A stretch of DNA of 64,000 bases from NCBI GenBank assembly GCA_002256385.1, contig NKJD01000004.1, forward strand, positions 1 through 64,000. Reading direction: 5' to 3'. Source of the stretch: Flavobacterium sp. BFFFF2. Its GTDB lineage: Bacteria > Bacteroidota > Bacteroidia > Flavobacteriales > Flavobacteriaceae. Below the pieces are notes generated by a model that had not been told where the DNA came from, ran no database searches, and saw only the letters and a list, made by a program, of their open reading frames with translations. The stretch's first letter is position 1. Every line of letters starts with the position of its first letter. Both the position numbers and the translations under genes were made by a program. Below are positions 49,400-64,000 of this stretch, piece after piece.

Positions 49400-49429
49400 C
49401 CGAGCAACTTTCAAACTTTCAACTTAGCT

Positions 49430-49525
49430 TTGGGCGTGCCCCGCCTGCCTAAGGCGAGGCGGGTCGGGCTGTCCGTTATATCTTTTGCTAAAGCAAAAGG
49501 ATGCCACTGCCATCCCTCACGCGAT
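49430..49525. repeat. GGGCG...GGCGGGTCGGGCTGTCCG...CTTTTGC...GCAAAAGGATGCC...CACGCGAT element, copy 1
   Basis: Modular match with 59067-59168. Confidence 0.75.
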
Positions 49526-49762
49526 TTTAGTTTAAAGTTTCAGGTTTAAAGTTTCAGATTTTTTACGAACAGCACCTACTAAAACCAGGCACTTAGTTCC
49601 CGCCGGGCTGGTCTAAAGTCAATATTTCCTTGCGTTTAAAAGTTTTTCAACGCTTGAAATGTCAAGTGATAACATTTGTTGCTGCATTAATTTTATTGCT
49701 GATTTTCAGGTGGTTTATTGGTTAAAGTGCTTCGCCATAAACTTTGATTGATTGTAAAAGTC

Positions 49763-55727: not shown

Positions 55728-56216
55728 ATGAATACCTATTTAGAGAAATATAAAGGCATACATCCTGGCGTTGTTTTGGCGCGAGAATTAAAGAAAAGAG
55801 CCCTCCACCAAAGGCCTTTTGCCATAGCTGTTGGGGAGCATCCACAAACCCTGAATGCCATTACGAAAGGAAAAAGAAAATTAAACACGGAACTAGCTTT
55901 AAAAATCGAGGAAAAACTTGGTTTGGAAGAAGGTACTTTAGCATTGCTCCAAACATATTTTGATATAAATGAACACAAAAAGAAAATGACCCAGCGCACA
56001 CCCAATCTCACTTGTGTAAGAAAATCATTATTCTGGGATACGGACATCAACAAAATCGACTGGGAGAAACAATATAAAGCAGTGATTCAGCGAGTCTTTG
56101 AAAGGGGTAATGACACTGAAAAAAGTGAAATTATTGGTTTTTATGGCCAGAAAAAAATAGCAATAGCTTTAGCGCAAATGAATGCGCCGTACATTGTTCA
56201 TAATCAAGATTTTTAA
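55728..56216 (+). CDS. HigA/XRE-like helix-turn-helix antitoxin-type regulator
   Basis: IHPGVVLARELKKRALHQRPFAIAVGEHPQTLNAITKGKRKLNTELALKIEEKLGLEEG HTH. Confidence 0.85.
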   Translation: MNTYLEKYKGIHPGVVLARELKKRALHQRPFAIAVGEHPQTLNAITKGKRKLNTELALKIEEKLGLEEGTLALLQTYFDINEHKKKMTQRTPNLTCVRKSLFWDTDINKIDWEKQYKAVIQRVFERGNDTEKSEIIGFYGQKKIAIALAQMNAPYIVHNQDF

Positions 56217-56237
56217 CCACTTCCGAAAGTAAAAAAG

Positions 56238-56876
56238 ATGTACTTAAATACCGTAAATCACCAGCTGAAGAACGCTTTAACTATTTTAATGAAAGCAGCC
56301 GTGTTCTCCTCATTCAGACTGGTAGGCGGAACGGCATTAAGCTTACAATTAGGACATAGAGAATCGATTGATATTGATTTATTTAGTGATGTTTCGTATG
56401 GTTCCATAGACTTTAATGAGATAGAATATTTTTTGAAAAGAAATTTTGAATATGTTGATTTTTTAAACGTGCCTCCAGCATTTGGACGATCTTATTTTAT
56501 TGGGGAAAGCCCCAACAATTCAATAAAATTAGATGTGTTTTATACGGATGCTTTTATCCAACCATTTATCGAGAAAGAAGGCATCAGAATGGCTACTGTC
56601 GCCGAAATTATTGCCATGAAACTGGATGTTGTTCAAAGAGTAGGACGAAAAAAAGACTTTTGGGATTTGCATGAGCTTTTGAATGCTTTCACCATCAATC
56701 AAATGATTGAACTTCACAAACAGCGCTATCCATTTTCCCATGACAGCACGTTGATTATTCAACATTTCACCAATTTCACCCGCGCTGACGATGATTTTGA
56801 CCCCATTTGCTACAAAGGAAAATACTGGGAATTTATAAAAGATGATTTTGAAGACGCCATCAAAAACGGATTTTAA
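56238..56876 (+). CDS. AbiEii/AbiGii-like nucleotidyltransferase toxin
   Basis: FSSFRLVGGTALSLQLGHRESIDIDLFSD and MATVAEIIAMKLDVVQRVGRKKDFWDLHEL. Confidence 0.9.
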   Translation: MYLNTVNHQLKNALTILMKAAVFSSFRLVGGTALSLQLGHRESIDIDLFSDVSYGSIDFNEIEYFLKRNFEYVDFLNVPPAFGRSYFIGESPNNSIKLDVFYTDAFIQPFIEKEGIRMATVAEIIAMKLDVVQRVGRKKDFWDLHELLNAFTINQMIELHKQRYPFSHDSTLIIQHFTNFTRADDDFDPICYKGKYWEFIKDDFEDAIKNGF

Positions 56877-57058: not shown

Positions 57059-58942
57059 CTAAAGCCTTTCAAAACTGCGTTTCACAAAAGCGGTCAGCTC
57101 TTCGCCTTTAAGCAAACCTTGGCCAATTTTGGCCAAATCAAGGGCTGCTTGAATGTGTTGTTCACGCACGGCTTCGTCAGTGGTTTGCAACAACCGATTG
57201 GCCAAATCTGAATTGGTGTTCACCACCAAATTATACATATCAGGGAAATTGCCCATCGCAAACATGCCGCCGCCACCCGACTGGCTCATTTCTTTCATGC
57301 GGCGCATAAATTCGGGTTGGGTAATGACGAATGGGGCTGCATGGCTATCCAGCGCTTCCATTTGCACGGTATACGTCGATTTTGGCACAATTTTTTCAAT
57401 GAACTCTTGCAAGTTTTTGGTTTCCTCTTCGCTTAATTTTGAAGGCAAACTGTCTTCTTTGGCAATCAATTTATCAATGTGATCAGCATCGACACGGGCA
57501 AAAGTGAGGTTTTCATTTTCACCCTCCAACTTCTGAATCAAGTGCGACACAATCGGACTATCTAACAACAACACCTCGTAGCCTTTTTCGTGGGCAATGT
57601 CAATGTAACTGTGTTGGTTTTCGGCATTTGAAGCATATAACAATACCAATTTGCCGTCTTTGTCGGTTTGCGTGGCCGCAAATTTTTCTTTCAATTCATC
57701 CAAGGTGTAAAAGTCGCCTTTCACGGTGGGGTACAACATAAAAGCACCCGCCTTTTCAGAGAACTTCGGTTCCGACAACATGCCATATTCGAGTACAATT
57801 TTAATGTCGTTCCACTTGGCTTCAAAGTCGGCACGGTTGTCGGTAAACAACGACTTAAGCTTGTCGGCTACCTTGCGGGTAATGTAATTGGAAATCTTTT
57901 TCACGTTGCCATCGGCTTGCAAATACGAGCGCGACACATTCAACGGAATATCGGGTGAATCAATCACGCCGCGCAACATCACCAAAAATTCGGGTACAAT
58001 TCCCTCCACATTATCGGTGACATACACTTGATTTTGGTACAACTGAATCTTGTCTTTTTGCACCTGCAATTGCGCATCAAGCTTAGGAAAATAGAGAATC
58101 CCCGTTAAGTTAAACGGATAATCGACATTCAAATGAATGTTAAAAAGCGGCTCCTCAAACTGCATCGGATACAGTTCGCGGTAAAAACTTTTATAATCTT
58201 CGTCGCTGAGGTCCGCAGGTTGACGCGTCCAAGCCGGATTCGGGTTGTTGATGACGTTTTCTACCTCTTCATACTCGGTTTTATAATCTTCAGGGGCATC
58301 TTCTGGTTTCGGAAGCGCCACTTTTTTGGTGCCAAATACGATGGGCACCGGCATGAATTTATTGTATTTTTTTAGTAATTCCGAAATTTTCGATTCCTCC
58401 AAAAACTCTTCCGAATCTTCGGCTATGTGCAACACAATTTCCGAACCGCGCTCGGTTTTGTCGTGCGCCACCAACGTAAATTCAGGGCTGCCATCGCAAG
58501 TCCAATGGGCGGCTGGTGCGTCCTGATATGATTTGGTGATGATTTCAACCTTCGAAGCCACCATAAAAGCCGAGTAAAACCCAAGCCCAAAATGGCCAAT
58601 AATGCCGCTGTCTTTGGCGCTGTCTTTGTATTTTTCAAGGAACTCTTCGGCCCCCGAAAATGCAATTTGGTTAATGTATTTCTCTACTTCTTCCAGCGTC
58701 ATACCCAAACCTTGGTCAATAATGCTCAGGGTTTTGGCCTCCTTGTCAATTTTAATGTGAATTTTCGGATCGCCATATTCCACCTTGGCCTCCCCAAGAC
58801 TGGTTAAATGCTTTAATTTCAGCGTGGCATCGGTGGCATTCGACACCAATTCGCGCAAAAAGATTTCGTGGTCGCTGTATAAAAACTTTTTAATGAGTGG
58901 GAAAATGTTTTCGACCGAAACATTAATTTTTCCAGTGGACAT
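57059..58942 (-). CDS. htpG: molecular chaperone HtpG (Hsp90)
   Basis: FLRELVSNATDATLKL, DQGLGMTLEEV, GIIGHFGLGFYSAFMVA, EGIVPEFLVMLRGVIDSPDIPLNVSRSYLQ. Confidence 0.97.
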   Translation of the reverse strand: MSTGKINVSVENIFPLIKKFLYSDHEIFLRELVSNATDATLKLKHLTSLGEAKVEYGDPKIHIKIDKEAKTLSIIDQGLGMTLEEVEKYINQIAFSGAEEFLEKYKDSAKDSGIIGHFGLGFYSAFMVASKVEIITKSYQDAPAAHWTCDGSPEFTLVAHDKTERGSEIVLHIAEDSEEFLEESKISELLKKYNKFMPVPIVFGTKKVALPKPEDAPEDYKTEYEEVENVINNPNPAWTRQPADLSDEDYKSFYRELYPMQFEEPLFNIHLNVDYPFNLTGILYFPKLDAQLQVQKDKIQLYQNQVYVTDNVEGIVPEFLVMLRGVIDSPDIPLNVSRSYLQADGNVKKISNYITRKVADKLKSLFTDNRADFEAKWNDIKIVLEYGMLSEPKFSEKAGAFMLYPTVKGDFYTLDELKEKFAATQTDKDGKLVLLYASNAENQHSYIDIAHEKGYEVLLLDSPIVSHLIQKLEGENENLTFARVDADHIDKLIAKEDSLPSKLSEEETKNLQEFIEKIVPKSTYTVQMEALDSHAAPFVITQPEFMRRMKEMSQSGGGGMFAMGNFPDMYNLVVNTNSDLANRLLQTTDEAVREQHIQAALDLAKIGQGLLKGEELTAFVKRSFERL

Positions 58943-59066
58943 ACTACACAATTTAAGGTTATGCTCCAGCAGCTACAAAACCAATACCAAACCGCGCTGG
59001 CTGACAAATTGACGGATGCACCCCCGCCTATAGCAGACAAGCTGTCATTTAGCAGGCGCTTTTTTC

Positions 59067-59168
59067 TTTTGGGCGCCCCCCGCCCAGGCGGGTCAGGCTG
59101 TCGGGCGTCGCTCTTTTGGCCTAAGGCGCAAAAGGAGCTTCGGCAAGCCCGCCATCCTTGGCGCGATC
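59067..59168. repeat. GGGCG...GCGCGAT element, copy 2
   Basis: GGGCGCCCCCCGCCCAGGCGGGTCAGGCTGTCGGGCG...CTTCGGCAAGCCCGCCATCCTTGGCGCGATC; last 31 bp identical to 62082-62112. Confidence 0.85.
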
Positions 59169-59549
59169 TGCCAGTTAACGACGCCATTATTTGTAAGTGT
59201 ATGAATGGTGCACACTTCAACGAGCTTGGGTAATTTTGGTTGTTTCATGTATTACCGAGCTATGAAAAGCAGTAGTGTATAAGTAATCCAGACATTGATA
59301 GTAAACTTTCTTGTATTTGTACGCTTATGTAACAAATTAACAAATAATTAACAAAAAAAAAAAAAACAAGTCAATACCCAATTTAAATATATTTGCAACA
59401 ATAAAAATAGTAAACAGCTTACAAAAGAGCTTGGCGCGCTCACATGAACCAAACAAAAAGCAGTTGGTTTTTTGGTATACAATAATTATAAATAGGGCAA
59501 GCTGGATTTGAACTGGGTTGTACAGCGGGCCAAACGAACCAAACCCCAT

Positions 59550-59593
59550 AAAAAACTCCCCTTCAGCTAAAGTGGAAAGAAGCTTCGGGGGAG
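59550..59593 (-). terminator. large GC-rich hairpin; minus-strand terminator-like
   Basis: CTCCCC...GGGGAG outer stem with AGCT/AGCT inner pairing; on the minus strand followed by TTTTTT. Confidence 0.5.
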
Positions 59594-59618
59594 CGAAATC
59601 AAAAAAATTTTAACAAAG

Positions 59619-60953
59619 ATGAAAAAATTTATTTTAACCGCATTATTACTGGTCACTTATGTGTCCTTTTCGCAAGTATCACTCATCCGACAAGAAGCAG
59701 AAACCAAGGGTGTGGTGCTTTTTGATATGGAACGAGCCATTTTAGACAAAGCGGAGCAAATTGAGGCTCGCTTTAACACTTTGAAAACCTATTCTAAGGA
59801 ATACAACCTCAAAACCTTAGCTTGTCAGTTGGACTCTGATGACTTCAATTCATTTATCTTTAATTTGAATGTACTAAACGACATTTACACAAATGACATC
59901 AGTGATGCCTCATCTACTTCGTTTGACTACTTGAAAAGCTACTGGGGGCTCACCGATGCCGACAAAGCAGCCCTTTCTGCTTTGTACGTAAATCAATTGA
60001 ACAAATCGCAATTGCCTTTGGTTTATTTAACGGATGACCAATATAATGACAAATGCAATTTGCAAGAAGTAATAGGCTTATACGTTGCAGATGGGAAGAT
60101 TTATAAAACTGCGGTAAAAGACCTATTCCCGTCTTCTGTGGAGCAATCAGGCAACGAAGTGTTTTTAAATTTGGCTTTGGCAAGTATTTATAATCGAATT
60201 TCTTCGCCATCCGACCACGCAGCAATTGACTATGTTTCATTAAACGCCACAGACAATATTTATGTAGGATGTATTAAAAACGCATGGAGCAGTTTTGTGA
60301 CTGATTTTGTCAATTCAAAAGGAGCTACTATCGGCATGGGAACTTTTTCGTATGTTTGTGATGGGTGTACTACGCTTTCATTGTGGAAAAGCGATGATCA
60401 ATTAGCGGCACAGAAATTGAGTGATGGTTATGCGAAATGTGTATTAAACGCGGAGAAAAAAGCGTCATGGAAAGCAATGATAGATACATTTTCAAATTCA
60501 TTAAACGCAGAGTTACAATCTGTATGTCCTAGCAACATTGATTTAAACACTTTCAAGAGAGGAATATTAGATGGAACTTATACAGTGCCGGCAAATACAG
60601 TTTCAAAAATAGAGCAATTAGCATTGCCATTAAAAAACTATGCAAATTCATTTATTGTCGATAACAATTTAGTTCTTGAAAATGGGGAAGATTCAGTTAT
60701 TTATGCTGGTTTTCCGCCAAACATTCCCATTGAAACTTATGATCTAACTGCAGCAGAAATTGCTGGTTGCGTTATTGGCACTGTTATTGGTGGTTTTGGA
60801 TTGCTGAGTGGAATTGCTCACATAAAGGAAAAAGGAATACAGTTTATTTGCAAATGGGTTACTAAAAATTTGATTCGATTTGCTACTCCTCTTGGGAATA
60901 TTTTTATGGCTGCAATGTTAGCAGCTTGTTTGTACAATAATTACTACGATTAA
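59619..60953 (+). CDS. secreted protein of unknown function with Gly-rich hydrophobic C-terminus
   Basis: Signal peptide MKKFILTALLLVTYVSFSQ; C-terminal AGCVIGTVIGGFGLLSGIAHIKEKGIQFICKWVTKNLIRFATPLGNIFMAAMLAACLYNNYYD. Confidence 0.8.
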   Translation: MKKFILTALLLVTYVSFSQVSLIRQEAETKGVVLFDMERAILDKAEQIEARFNTLKTYSKEYNLKTLACQLDSDDFNSFIFNLNVLNDIYTNDISDASSTSFDYLKSYWGLTDADKAALSALYVNQLNKSQLPLVYLTDDQYNDKCNLQEVIGLYVADGKIYKTAVKDLFPSSVEQSGNEVFLNLALASIYNRISSPSDHAAIDYVSLNATDNIYVGCIKNAWSSFVTDFVNSKGATIGMGTFSYVCDGCTTLSLWKSDDQLAAQKLSDGYAKCVLNAEKKASWKAMIDTFSNSLNAELQSVCPSNIDLNTFKRGILDGTYTVPANTVSKIEQLALPLKNYANSFIVDNNLVLENGEDSVIYAGFPPNIPIETYDLTAAEIAGCVIGTVIGGFGLLSGIAHIKEKGIQFICKWVTKNLIRFATPLGNIFMAAMLAACLYNNYYD

Positions 60954-60956
60954 ATT

Positions 60957-61160
60957 ATGAAAACTTTGTCTACGTATGTCGTTTTTTTGATTATTGCGTC
61001 AAAATTTGGATACATGATTTGCCAAGCATTTTTTAAAGTAAAAAATGATAATTTAGAACTTCTTATTGAACTCGCTTACTTGTTGGTAGCAGTTTATATA
61101 ATATACGATAACAAATACTTAAGAAAAGAAAACATAAAATTAAAGAATGAGGAAAAGTAA
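60957..61160 (+). CDS. small two-TM membrane protein (67 aa)
   Basis: Starts 3 nt after the previous stop; two hydrophobic helices, Lys-rich tail. Confidence 0.7.
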   Translation: MKTLSTYVVFLIIASKFGYMICQAFFKVKNDNLELLIELAYLLVAVYIIYDNKYLRKENIKLKNEEK

Positions 61161-61169
61161 TTTATTGCT

Positions 61170-61355
61170 ATGATTACCGCTGTCGATATCATCATATTCC
61201 CTGTTGTTTTTTTATCTGGTATTTTTGTTTCTGTCTATTTAGTAAACGGAAACAAAAACAGAAGATTGCCGCTAATTTTAATTGGTGTCTTAGGTTGGTT
61301 TTATGTTGCCTTTCATTTTACAGAAAAAGCAGCTCGAAAATACTTGAAAAAATAA
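61170..61355 (+). CDS. small two-TM membrane protein (61 aa)
   Basis: Starts 9 nt after the previous stop; two hydrophobic helices, basic tail. Confidence 0.65.
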   Translation: MITAVDIIIFPVVFLSGIFVSVYLVNGNKNRRLPLILIGVLGWFYVAFHFTEKAARKYLKK

Positions 61356-61563
61356 ACAAATGAGGCTGCTGGAAACGGCAGCCGCATTGTGTTTTTACAT
61401 TTTTATCAACTATGCGATCTAGATTACATAGCACTAATTTTTTTTAGCTATGTGTGTTTTCAATTGATATGCTTATTTATTTTTATCTTAACTATTTAAA
61501 AACCAAAAACAAGTCGTCATAAAAAGCAAGTCAAATAATGTCTAAAATATGGAAGATTGACCC

Positions 61564-61767
61564 ATGAAAGAAAAAGTTCTAAGCATCCTTTTTGTCGTTG
61601 TTTTTCTAATTTACTTGGTGGCAAGGATATTACACCATTACTATCAAATTCGATATCAAAAAGAATATTGGATTATTGAAGAAATCGATGATTCTTGCGT
61701 TACTTTCATGTTTTTATTCTTGGCAATAAAGTATGTTCTTGATAAAAAGAAAAGAGTAAATAGGTAG
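61564..61767 (+). CDS. small two-TM membrane protein (67 aa)
   Basis: Same length and architecture as the 60957 ORF. Confidence 0.6.
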   Translation: MKEKVLSILFVVVFLIYLVARILHHYYQIRYQKEYWIIEEIDDSCVTFMFLFLAIKYVLDKKKRVNR

Positions 61768-61865
61768 TGTAATGGATTGGTTTTCTTTGTGCTATTCCTT
61801 AGATTGAAAGAACAAAGGGATTTTAACAAAGTCAATGAGCAAACCACCATCACGGTCAAAGAGTA

Positions 61866-61904
61866 ACTCAAATAGGCTGTCTTCAATAGGCAGCCTTTTT
61901 CTTT
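61866..61904 (+). terminator. intrinsic terminator-like hairpin
   Basis: AGGCTG-TCTTCAATAGG-CAGCCT followed by TTTTTC. Confidence 0.65.
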
Positions 61905-62081
61905 ATATCTTTTCAAGATTAACTACACATAATGGTAGGACATTTTACCATTCTCCCAACAGCAATTTAGATCCAGTTAAATAACACTGGTTCTTGCAGC
62001 GGAACGGATAAAAAACCGAGGTATTTAAAAATGCGCTTCAAAACAAGCCCGACGCAGCCGCCATTCAAATGGTTATTCATT

Positions 62082-62112
62082 CTTCGGCAAGCCCGCCATC
62101 CTTGGCGCGATC
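62082..62112. repeat. 31-bp perfect direct repeat of 59138-59168 (partial copy 3 of the GGGCG element)
   Basis: CTTCGGCAAGCCCGCCATCCTTGGCGCGATC identical in both places, same orientation. Confidence 0.95.
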
Positions 62113-62244
62113 CCTATTATTACCATTAAAATCCACCCAGTGTAGAAGCCTAAAATTTTACATTTCGTTAACATTTGTTATCTTATTTATAATTTGTCTA
62201 AATAAAAATAAGCTATTATTTTTGCACCCAAATTAAAAATAATC

Positions 62245-64000
62245 ATGTTCATTCTTCGATACTCATTCTTGCTTTTGCTTGTTGTTCAAGTCCAAGCCCA
62301 AACTTCCACCGACTCCATGCGTGTCAACACCTTAGACACAGTGCATATCAAAGCCAAATCGCAAACAATGTATGTGTTACCCGAACAAGCGCAAGGCATA
62401 TTATTTGCTGGCAAAAAAACGCAACAAGTAAACCTACACGACAAACCCTTTGTGTCAGCTACCAACCAAATGCGACAAGCTTTGGCAGCGGTGCCCGGCG
62501 TTTCCATTTGGGAAAGCGATGGCTCGGGCGTGCAAATCAATATTGGATTTAGGGGCCTAAGCCCCAACCGCAGCTGGGAACTCAACACCCGCCAAAACGG
62601 CTACGACATTGCCGCCGATGTGTTTGGCTATCCAGAAGCCTATTACAACCCACCCCTCGATGCCGTCGAATCCATTCAGTTGGTGCGTGGCGGGTCTGCC
62701 TTGGCATTTGGCCCGCAAATTGGCGGTTCCCTCAATTATGTACTCAAAAGAGAAACCGAAAAGCCATTCGCCATTGAAGCCAATACGAGTATTGGTTCGT
62801 TTAATATGTTGAGTCATTTTATGGCGGTGGGTGGCAAAAAATCAAAATGGACGTATTATGGCTACCACCATCTGCGCAAAGGCGATGGCTGGCGCAGCAA
62901 CAACGGCTATCAGGTGCGGCACTTGCATGGCTATTTGGCTTATCAAATCAACCCAGCCCACCAATTATCCGCCGAAATTACCCGCATGGACTACCAAGTG
63001 CAACAACCCGGCGGATTAACCGATCTGCAATTTGCCCAAAACCCAAGGCAATCCAATCGGGCGCGCAATTGGTTTGGCGTGCAGTGGCACATTGCTCAAC
63101 TCAAATATACGGCCCAGTGGAACCAAGCGTTTTCGTCGCATTTTCAGCTTACCGGCCTGCTGGCCGACCGCAACAGCGTGGGCTTTACCGACGCCATCAC
63201 CAAACCCGATGTCATTGACCCGGCCACCAACAACTATGCCCCACGCCGCGTCGACATTGACGAATATGAAAACCTGACCTTTGAAAACCGCCAGTTGTGG
63301 CAATTCAAATTAGGCCAGCAAAAACAGCAATGGGCATTCGGGTTTCGTTTGTATCAGGCGCACACTTTTCGCCGCCAAAAAGGCGTGGGCAGCAGCAACT
63401 GGGACATGGATTTTGCCGCCACCAACGATTTCTTTAAAACAGCCATGGATTACCGCACCCGCAACATGGCCTATTTTACAGAATGGATTTTCAAACCTTC
63501 CGCCAATTGGCGCATCGTGCCGGGCATCCGCCATGAAACGGTGCAGTCTTTGGCCGAAGGAAACATCGACACAAACACACCGATTAATCAGCTGAAACAA
63601 ACCCGTCAAAAAACATTGGTAGGTTTAGGCATTCAATGGCAGCACAAGCAGTGGAATTATATGGCCAATGTGTCCCAGTCATTCCGGCCTGTGTTGTTCT
63701 CTGACCTCACGCCCGCCGCCCCCACCGATGTCGTTGATCCGCAATTAAAAGATGCCACCGCCGTTTCAGCAGAATTGGGAGCCCGAGGCAACCTTACCAA
63801 GTGGTTCCAACTCGACATCACCCTGTTTTACATGCAATACAACAACCGCATTGGTACACTTACCCAATGGACCAACCCCAACCAACCGAGTTTGGGCACC
63901 TATCTGTACCGCACCAATGTGGGCACTTCCATTCACCAAGGCATCGAATTAGGCACCGAACTACAACTTCATAAACTGTTCAAATGGCCCGCAAAAACGG
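62245..64000 (+). CDS. TonB-dependent receptor, FecA-like, truncated by the right window edge
   Basis: Translated directly: MFILRYSFLLLLLVVQVQAQTSTDSMRVNTLDTVHIKAKS...ATNQMRQALAAVPGVSIWESDGSGVQINIGFRGLSPNRSWELNTRQNGYDIAADVFGYPEAYYNPPLDAVESIQLVRGGSALAFGPQIGGSLNYV; absent from the ORF track because it has no stop in the window. Confidence 0.92.
   Translation, partial: MFILRYSFLLLLVVQVQAQTSTDSMRVNTLDTVHIKAKSQTMYVLPEQAQGILFAGKKTQQVNLHDKPFVSATNQMRQALAAVPGVSIWESDGSGVQINIGFRGLSPNRSWELNTRQNGYDIAADVFGYPEAYYNPPLDAVESIQLVRGGSALAFGPQIGGSLNYVLKRETEKPFAIEANTSIGSFNMLSHFMAVGGKKSKWTYYGYHHLRKGDGWRSNNGYQVRHLHGYLAYQINPAHQLSAEITRMDYQVQQPGGLTDLQFAQNPRQSNRARNWFGVQWHIAQLKYTAQWNQAFSSHFQLTGLLADRNSVGFTDAITKPDVIDPATNNYAPRRVDIDEYENLTFENRQLWQFKLGQQKQQWAFGFRLYQAHTFRRQKGVGSSNWDMDFAATNDFFKTAMDYRTRNMAYFTEWIFKPSANWRIVPGIRHETVQSLAEGNIDTNTPINQLKQTRQKTLVGLGIQWQHKQWNYMANVSQSFRPVLFSDLTPAAPTDVVDPQLKDATAVSAELGARGNLTKWFQLDITLFYMQYNNRIGTLTQWTNPNQPSLGTYLYRTNVGTSIHQGIELGTELQLHKLFKWPAKT

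Follow-up and report, generated by a model that had tools for sequence, protein, structure and literature searches.

The window analysed here, the whole 64,000-nt stretch of DNA at the start of contig NKJD01000004.1 of Flavobacterium sp. BFFFF2, contains near its right end a segment bracketed by two copies of a 31-mer, CTTCGGCAAGCCCGCCATCCTTGGCGCGATC, with htpG to the left and the gene for a TonB-dependent receptor to the right (Table 1). A preliminary description of this DNA had placed both of these conserved genes outside the repeats, which was confirmed by Pfam, and the open reading frames (ORFs) that it had indicated between 59619 and 61767 are present as the four bracketed genes listed in the table. 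The bracketed genes are AT-rich, with GC contents of 0.26-0.37, lower than the 0.41 of the window and the 0.51 of the TonB receptor gene.

Table 1. Features of the bracketed locus and its surroundings (window coordinates unless a contig is named)
Feature	Position	Strand	Evidence or remarks
Same-family element copy in the window	49424..49527	-	Rfam Flavo-1 (RF01705) at 49458-49530, 52.5 bits, above cut-off
htpG, left neighbour	57059..58939	-	Pfam HSP90; all 60 genus genomes examined have an orthologue
Copy 1, full element	59063..59169	-	model R1, 127.5 bits (by construction, as a seed)
Left 31-mer	59138..59168	+	terminal part of copy 1 (an arm of the closing stem, an arm of the lower second stem) with 3 flanking nt
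444-aa protein, predicted to be an exported toxin-like precursor	59619..60953	+	hydrophobic stretches at aa 5-23 (signal-like) and aa 381-399; no family match
Conserved C-terminal domain of about 68 aa, two conserved cysteines	60747..60950	+	matched in two genomes of the order at E 8e-9 and 8e-6; alignments A6, A7; BLASTP
67-aa protein, two hydrophobic helices, predicted immunity protein	60957..61160	+	small protein of this type at this place in all four loci
61-aa protein with a pair of hydrophobic segments, perhaps an additional immunity protein	61170..61355	+	
Terminator-like hairpin after the 61-aa gene	61364..61383	+	consensus scan only
67-aa protein, one or more hydrophobic segments, perhaps an additional immunity protein	61564..61767	+	
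Terminator-like hairpin and T run, end of the bracketed genes	61874..61896	+	consensus scan only
Right 31-mer	62082..62112	+	element fragment without pairing partners; private bases in common with copy 1
TonB receptor promoter region	62183..62226	+	conserved DNA upstream of TonB orthologues; undisrupted beyond the right 31-mer
TonB-dependent receptor gene, right neighbour	62245..64000, on to C50:64452	+	Pfam; orthologues about 49% identical

The bracket coincides with a gene-order junction that is private to this lineage. In none of 40 loci from relatives (20 around htpG and 20 around the TonB receptor gene) are the two genes neighbours. On the side concerned, the usual neighbours of htpG in 20 relatives are genes for lipocalin-like, OmpA-like and ABC ATPase proteins (names assigned by reading the sequences), and in most of 20 relatives the TonB receptor gene comes after a FeoB-like gene, with ZupT-like, MntR-like and lycopene cyclase-like genes behind it. 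In the present genome, feoB resides on another contig and the lycopene cyclase gene (65377-66513) is still near the TonB receptor gene; a search around the genome's own feoB for a remnant of the junction found no repeat in common within 20 kb. The best same-genus HtpG identity is 82%, and comparing the htpG-TonB junction as proposed in the preliminary description shows that the pair is not adjacent in the relatives, none of which, at such distance, offers an empty site for comparison. The promoter region of the TonB receptor gene is up to 93% conserved upstream of its orthologues in many genus genomes and, judged by eye, looks like a metal (Fur-type) box with a Bacteroidota TAnnTTTG promoter. 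DNA matches to this region were considered as candidate relatives of the bracketed segment and rejected, as they represent the promoter itself, which these genomes carry ahead of their TonB orthologues. Beside htpG, at 55728-56876 on the plus strand, a HigA-like HTH/DUF6922 gene is followed by an AbiEii-type nucleotidyltransferase gene, likely a toxin-antitoxin pair.

The 31-mers and a Flavo-1-related structured element

The two 31-mers are, as described previously, perfect direct repeats in the same orientation, with zero mismatches. With up to three mismatches allowed, they are the sole matches in the window, where shuffled sequences predict 0, and the only two copies in the genome (3.72 Mb in 118 contigs); their identity breaks off abruptly on either side. 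The 31-mer is the end of a structured, mostly intergenic repeat element of about 107 nt that is of the Flavo-1 kind, which bears out the earlier suggestion that the repeats are copies of a dispersed element. With the left repeat and its surroundings (181 bp) as query, longer relatives were identified at C50:64457-64560 (96% over 104 nt), C1:33209-33272 (89%) and C96:5645-5717 (72%). The first of these (copy 3, also delimited as C50:64458-64564) is located just beyond the end of the window, downstream of the TonB receptor gene.

A minus-strand alignment of five seed copies, namely copies 1 and 3, those on C1 and C96 and the one at 49.4 kb, reveals a common architecture with a single fold, in which the closing stem covaries (GCGCC/GGCGC, GCGTT/AACGC, GGGTT/AACCC, GCGTG/CACGC). 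The covariance model built from these seeds (R1) yields 29 matches in this genome and, at E<=1e-5, also hits 123 of the 148 genus genomes searched; 26 of the 28 copies that were checked lie between ORFs of at least 120 aa. Across 40 distinct sequences, aligned by fitting to the model, which biases the result in favour of the structure, pairing in the closing stem reaches 99.5%, and four of its five pairs have changed on both sides; for the whole structure, 90.8% of the cells are paired versus 34-51%, a level that none of the 500 shuffles and none of the slid versions attains. Free folding of the two repeat regions (z of -1.5 and -1.2 relative to shuffles) is uninformative because the signal of the element is covariation, not energy.

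The Flavo-1 match at 49.4 kb aligns end to end with copies 1 and 3, and one model finds both kinds; the Flavo-1 cut-off is passed at 19 sites in the genome, most of which are also R1 matches. The Rfam Flavo-1 model does not match copy 1 at E up to 10, or copy 3 and the copies on C1 and C96 at E up to 5. Because the model misses them, copies 1 and 3 are classified as relatives of Flavo-1, not as formal members by the criterion of the Rfam model. The element shares with Flavo-1 the same long imperfect hairpin, whereas the unit described here, at about 107 nt, is longer by a closing stem and a second hairpin. Flavo-1 itself has been listed only as a probable non-cis-regulatory RNA of Bacteroidetes (Weinberg et al. 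2010, PMC2864571). If our assignment is right, sequences of the Flavo-1 type continue into a larger repeat with covariation that is frequent in the genus and able to mark rearrangement junctions.

Within this family, the two 31-mers have features in common that set them apart. The reading CCAAGGATGG is found only in these two, copy 3 has CCAGGGATGG and the remaining copies differ at this position; among the element copies, the flanking trinucleotide GAT is found only in copies 1 and 2, the left and the right one. Probably, then, one 31-mer derives from the other. The private base together with the GAT flank, unique to both, suggests that the terminal part of copy 1 was duplicated to give the right 31-mer, an argument from one substitution and three flanking bases that we grade as modest evidence.

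A predicted toxin-immunity unit

The preliminary description saw only uncharacterised genes between the repeats; by their look, the first two would instead encode an exported toxin-like precursor and a small membrane partner. The bracketed proteins match no named toxin family, and the C-terminal domain of the 444-aa protein belongs to no Pfam or NCBIfam family. No homologue of the whole 444-aa protein was found in the genome collection, viral contigs, phages, plasmids or PDB sequences, and a tblastn search of the plasmid collection with the bracketed proteins gave no match. The profile of the domain found nothing in PDB, and structure predictions are too poor for use (pLDDT of 36 for the whole protein and 50 for the domain).

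The homology that was detected is confined to the C-terminus (aa ~355-444), which matches a 238-aa lipoprotein-like protein in one genome (G629; E 8e-9) and a short ORF of Tenacibaculum (G593; E 8e-6), both E values being per genome with 392 searched; the Tenacibaculum genome belongs, by kinship, to the same family as the source genome. A profile of the three sequences finds a 259-aa protein elsewhere in the class with an E of 8e-4 (per genome, among 389), which is not significant alone; for this fourth homologue, hhalign gives 5e-6 in a single comparison. Seven columns are invariant in all four domains, including two cysteines, a glycine and a P-x-G motif, and the three homologues have differing N-terminal parts. 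The distribution of the domain is very rare and patchy. The Tenacibaculum ORF (L214:4968-5423), which lies with its two-helix gene between genes for ribosomal protein S1-like and phosphomutase-like proteins, has no in-frame ATG and may be a remnant; a TTG start is possible and the two-helix gene is still behind it. Two further hits were taken as chance, one (L017) inside a quinone oxidoreductase-like gene and the other (L217) antisense to another gene. Weak matches to aa 154-234, interrupted by one in-frame stop, were observed at two loci (L201 and L202; G735:C8 and G717:C7; E 9e-5 and 1e-3), and these are either chance or remnants of the N-terminal part of the 444-aa protein.

In all four loci, the gene directly after the one for the domain protein encodes a small two-helix protein (67, 87, 71 and 59 aa), overlapping it or starting within 10 nt; in the DNA analysed, a small two-helix ORF follows only 1 of 427 other genes. 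The four small proteins are unlike each other in sequence; immunity proteins often differ in this way. Pfam reports for the 67-aa protein at 60957..61160 a marginal match to DUF6500 (24.3 bits against a cut-off of 23.7). We infer from the C-terminal homology, the two-helix gene next to it in four Bacteroidota loci and the signal-like N-terminus that the 444-aa protein and the adjoining 67-aa protein could be a bacteriocin-like precursor and its immunity protein. Under such a mechanism, the precursor would be exported, and the hydrophobic C-terminal domain of about 68 aa, with its presumed disulphide, would be released or displayed; it might then insert into and permeabilise the membrane of related competitors, while the small two-helix protein would block the toxin in the producer, which the two further small membrane genes may also protect. 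If this is right, a toxin-like C-terminal domain with a two-helix partner occurs across several Bacteroidota lineages outside the coverage of Pfam and NCBIfam.

Alternatively, the 444-aa protein could be a surface protein with its small neighbours as membrane partners in assembly, anchoring or sensing, in which case no toxin and no immunity protein would be involved. The lack of matches to known toxin families is compatible with such a role, as is the fact that nothing related was found for most of the 444 residues. However, the rare, patchy distribution, a single C-terminal domain attached to differing N-terminal parts and the dissimilarity of the small membrane partners are the usual properties of toxin-immunity loci, and we regard a surface protein as rather unlikely.

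Among known bacteriocins, two systems serve as working analogies, compared here by description. In BcpT/BcpI of Bacteroidales, an exported precursor of 499 aa yields an active C-terminal fragment and a small immunity gene lies just downstream (PMC9308784); this precursor, from the same phylum, is near in size to the 444-aa protein, and the small gene has the same position. In contrast to the present locus, BcpI is a 57-aa lipoprotein (PMC9308784), whereas the partner here is a two-helix membrane protein; BcpT, too, is a lipoprotein, and its cleavage takes place at two LTR sites. The Cdz glycine-zipper bacteriocins of Caulobacter, CdzC/D (84-86 aa), are small hydrophobic killers that are type I secreted, with secretion genes alongside, and are accompanied by the inner-membrane protein CdzI with three predicted helices (PMC5380434). 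The predicted unit resembles them in combining a hydrophobic killing protein with a small membrane immunity protein; unlike in Cdz, no secretion genes are seen beside the bracketed genes.

Origin of the bracketed segment

The repeats and the genes are two separate things that meet at one spot, and the content of the segment is more interesting than the repeats. The view of the preliminary description, that this looks like a 2.9-kb accessory cassette brought in, or able to be removed, by recombination between element copies, is upheld in part: the segment is lineage-specific, with no relatives of its DNA found in 397 genus genomes, is low in GC, lies at a break in gene order and ends in a right-hand copy that carries the private bases of the left one. 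Speaking against a simple cassette, no integrase, transposase or recombinase is encoded among the four genes, and a longer bracket exists that includes the TonB receptor gene. Insertion of the segment into the htpG-TonB junction is plausible. Duplication during an insertion or rearrangement would give the left and right copies their common private bases, and most likely the right-hand 31-mer would have been made when a lineage-specific segment of about 2.9 kb entered, or was rearranged into, the junction. Under insertion, the empty site would be a single intact element, CAAAAGGAG-31mer-CCTATTATT, without the bracketed genes; under excision, the circle would be joined as GGTTATTCATT-31mer-TGCCAGTTAACG. 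The combined proposal, that the end of an element of the Flavo-1 kind was duplicated at insertion or rearrangement and that the segment carries a predicted antibacterial toxin-immunity unit, has in our estimate an even chance of being correct.

A possible alternative, to which we assign a considerable probability that nevertheless falls short of even, is that a rearrangement breakpoint here happens to hold ordinary lineage-specific DNA, the bracketing having no mechanistic meaning and the 31-nt fragment being a decayed element or a product of gene conversion. Dispersed elements often sit at rearrangement junctions, htpG and the TonB receptor gene are both parted from their ancestral partners, the genome holds 29 element copies and the presence of copy 3 beyond the TonB receptor gene shows that elements cluster here regardless of the bracketed genes. 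The DNA beside the right fragment also has weak further similarity to the element, with a score that 2.8% of shuffles reach. Yet the private base and the GAT flank occur in copies 1 and 2 only, which independent copies would not be expected to have in common. Quite unlikely, in our judgement, is a larger mobile or duplicated unit in which the bracketed genes and the TonB receptor gene were moved jointly by homologous recombination between the full elements. Copies 1 and 3, which bracket all of these genes, are indeed the longest repeat pair in the region, and the TonB receptor gene exceeds the rest in GC content and is away from its FeoB-ZupT-MntR neighbours; but it is near the lycopene cyclase gene, as in most relatives, and so looks native to the right flank, and the flanks of copies 1 and 3 are unrelated.

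A further, more far-reaching reading would make Flavo-1-like elements the places where small toxin-immunity cassettes without an integrase land, with the 31-mers as left and right attachment sites and a recombinase acting from elsewhere. As with the attachment-site repeats of integrative elements, short co-oriented repeats edge an accessory segment; in contrast to them, the segment is devoid of an integrase and is not known to form a circle, and the repeat belongs to a multicopy element. We consider this reading highly improbable; if true, the elements scattered over these genomes would be docks for accessory cassettes. Many element copies in this genome (L174, L176, L179-L191) are preceded by short tandem runs, e.g. 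CCTGAAACTTTAAACCTGAAAC and GTTCGTAAAAAA, which gives the impression of a repeat unit that reaches past its structured part. At L019:7827-7868 (C1), a match to group II intron D1-D4 (36.3 bits) begins and is truncated by the end of the contig.
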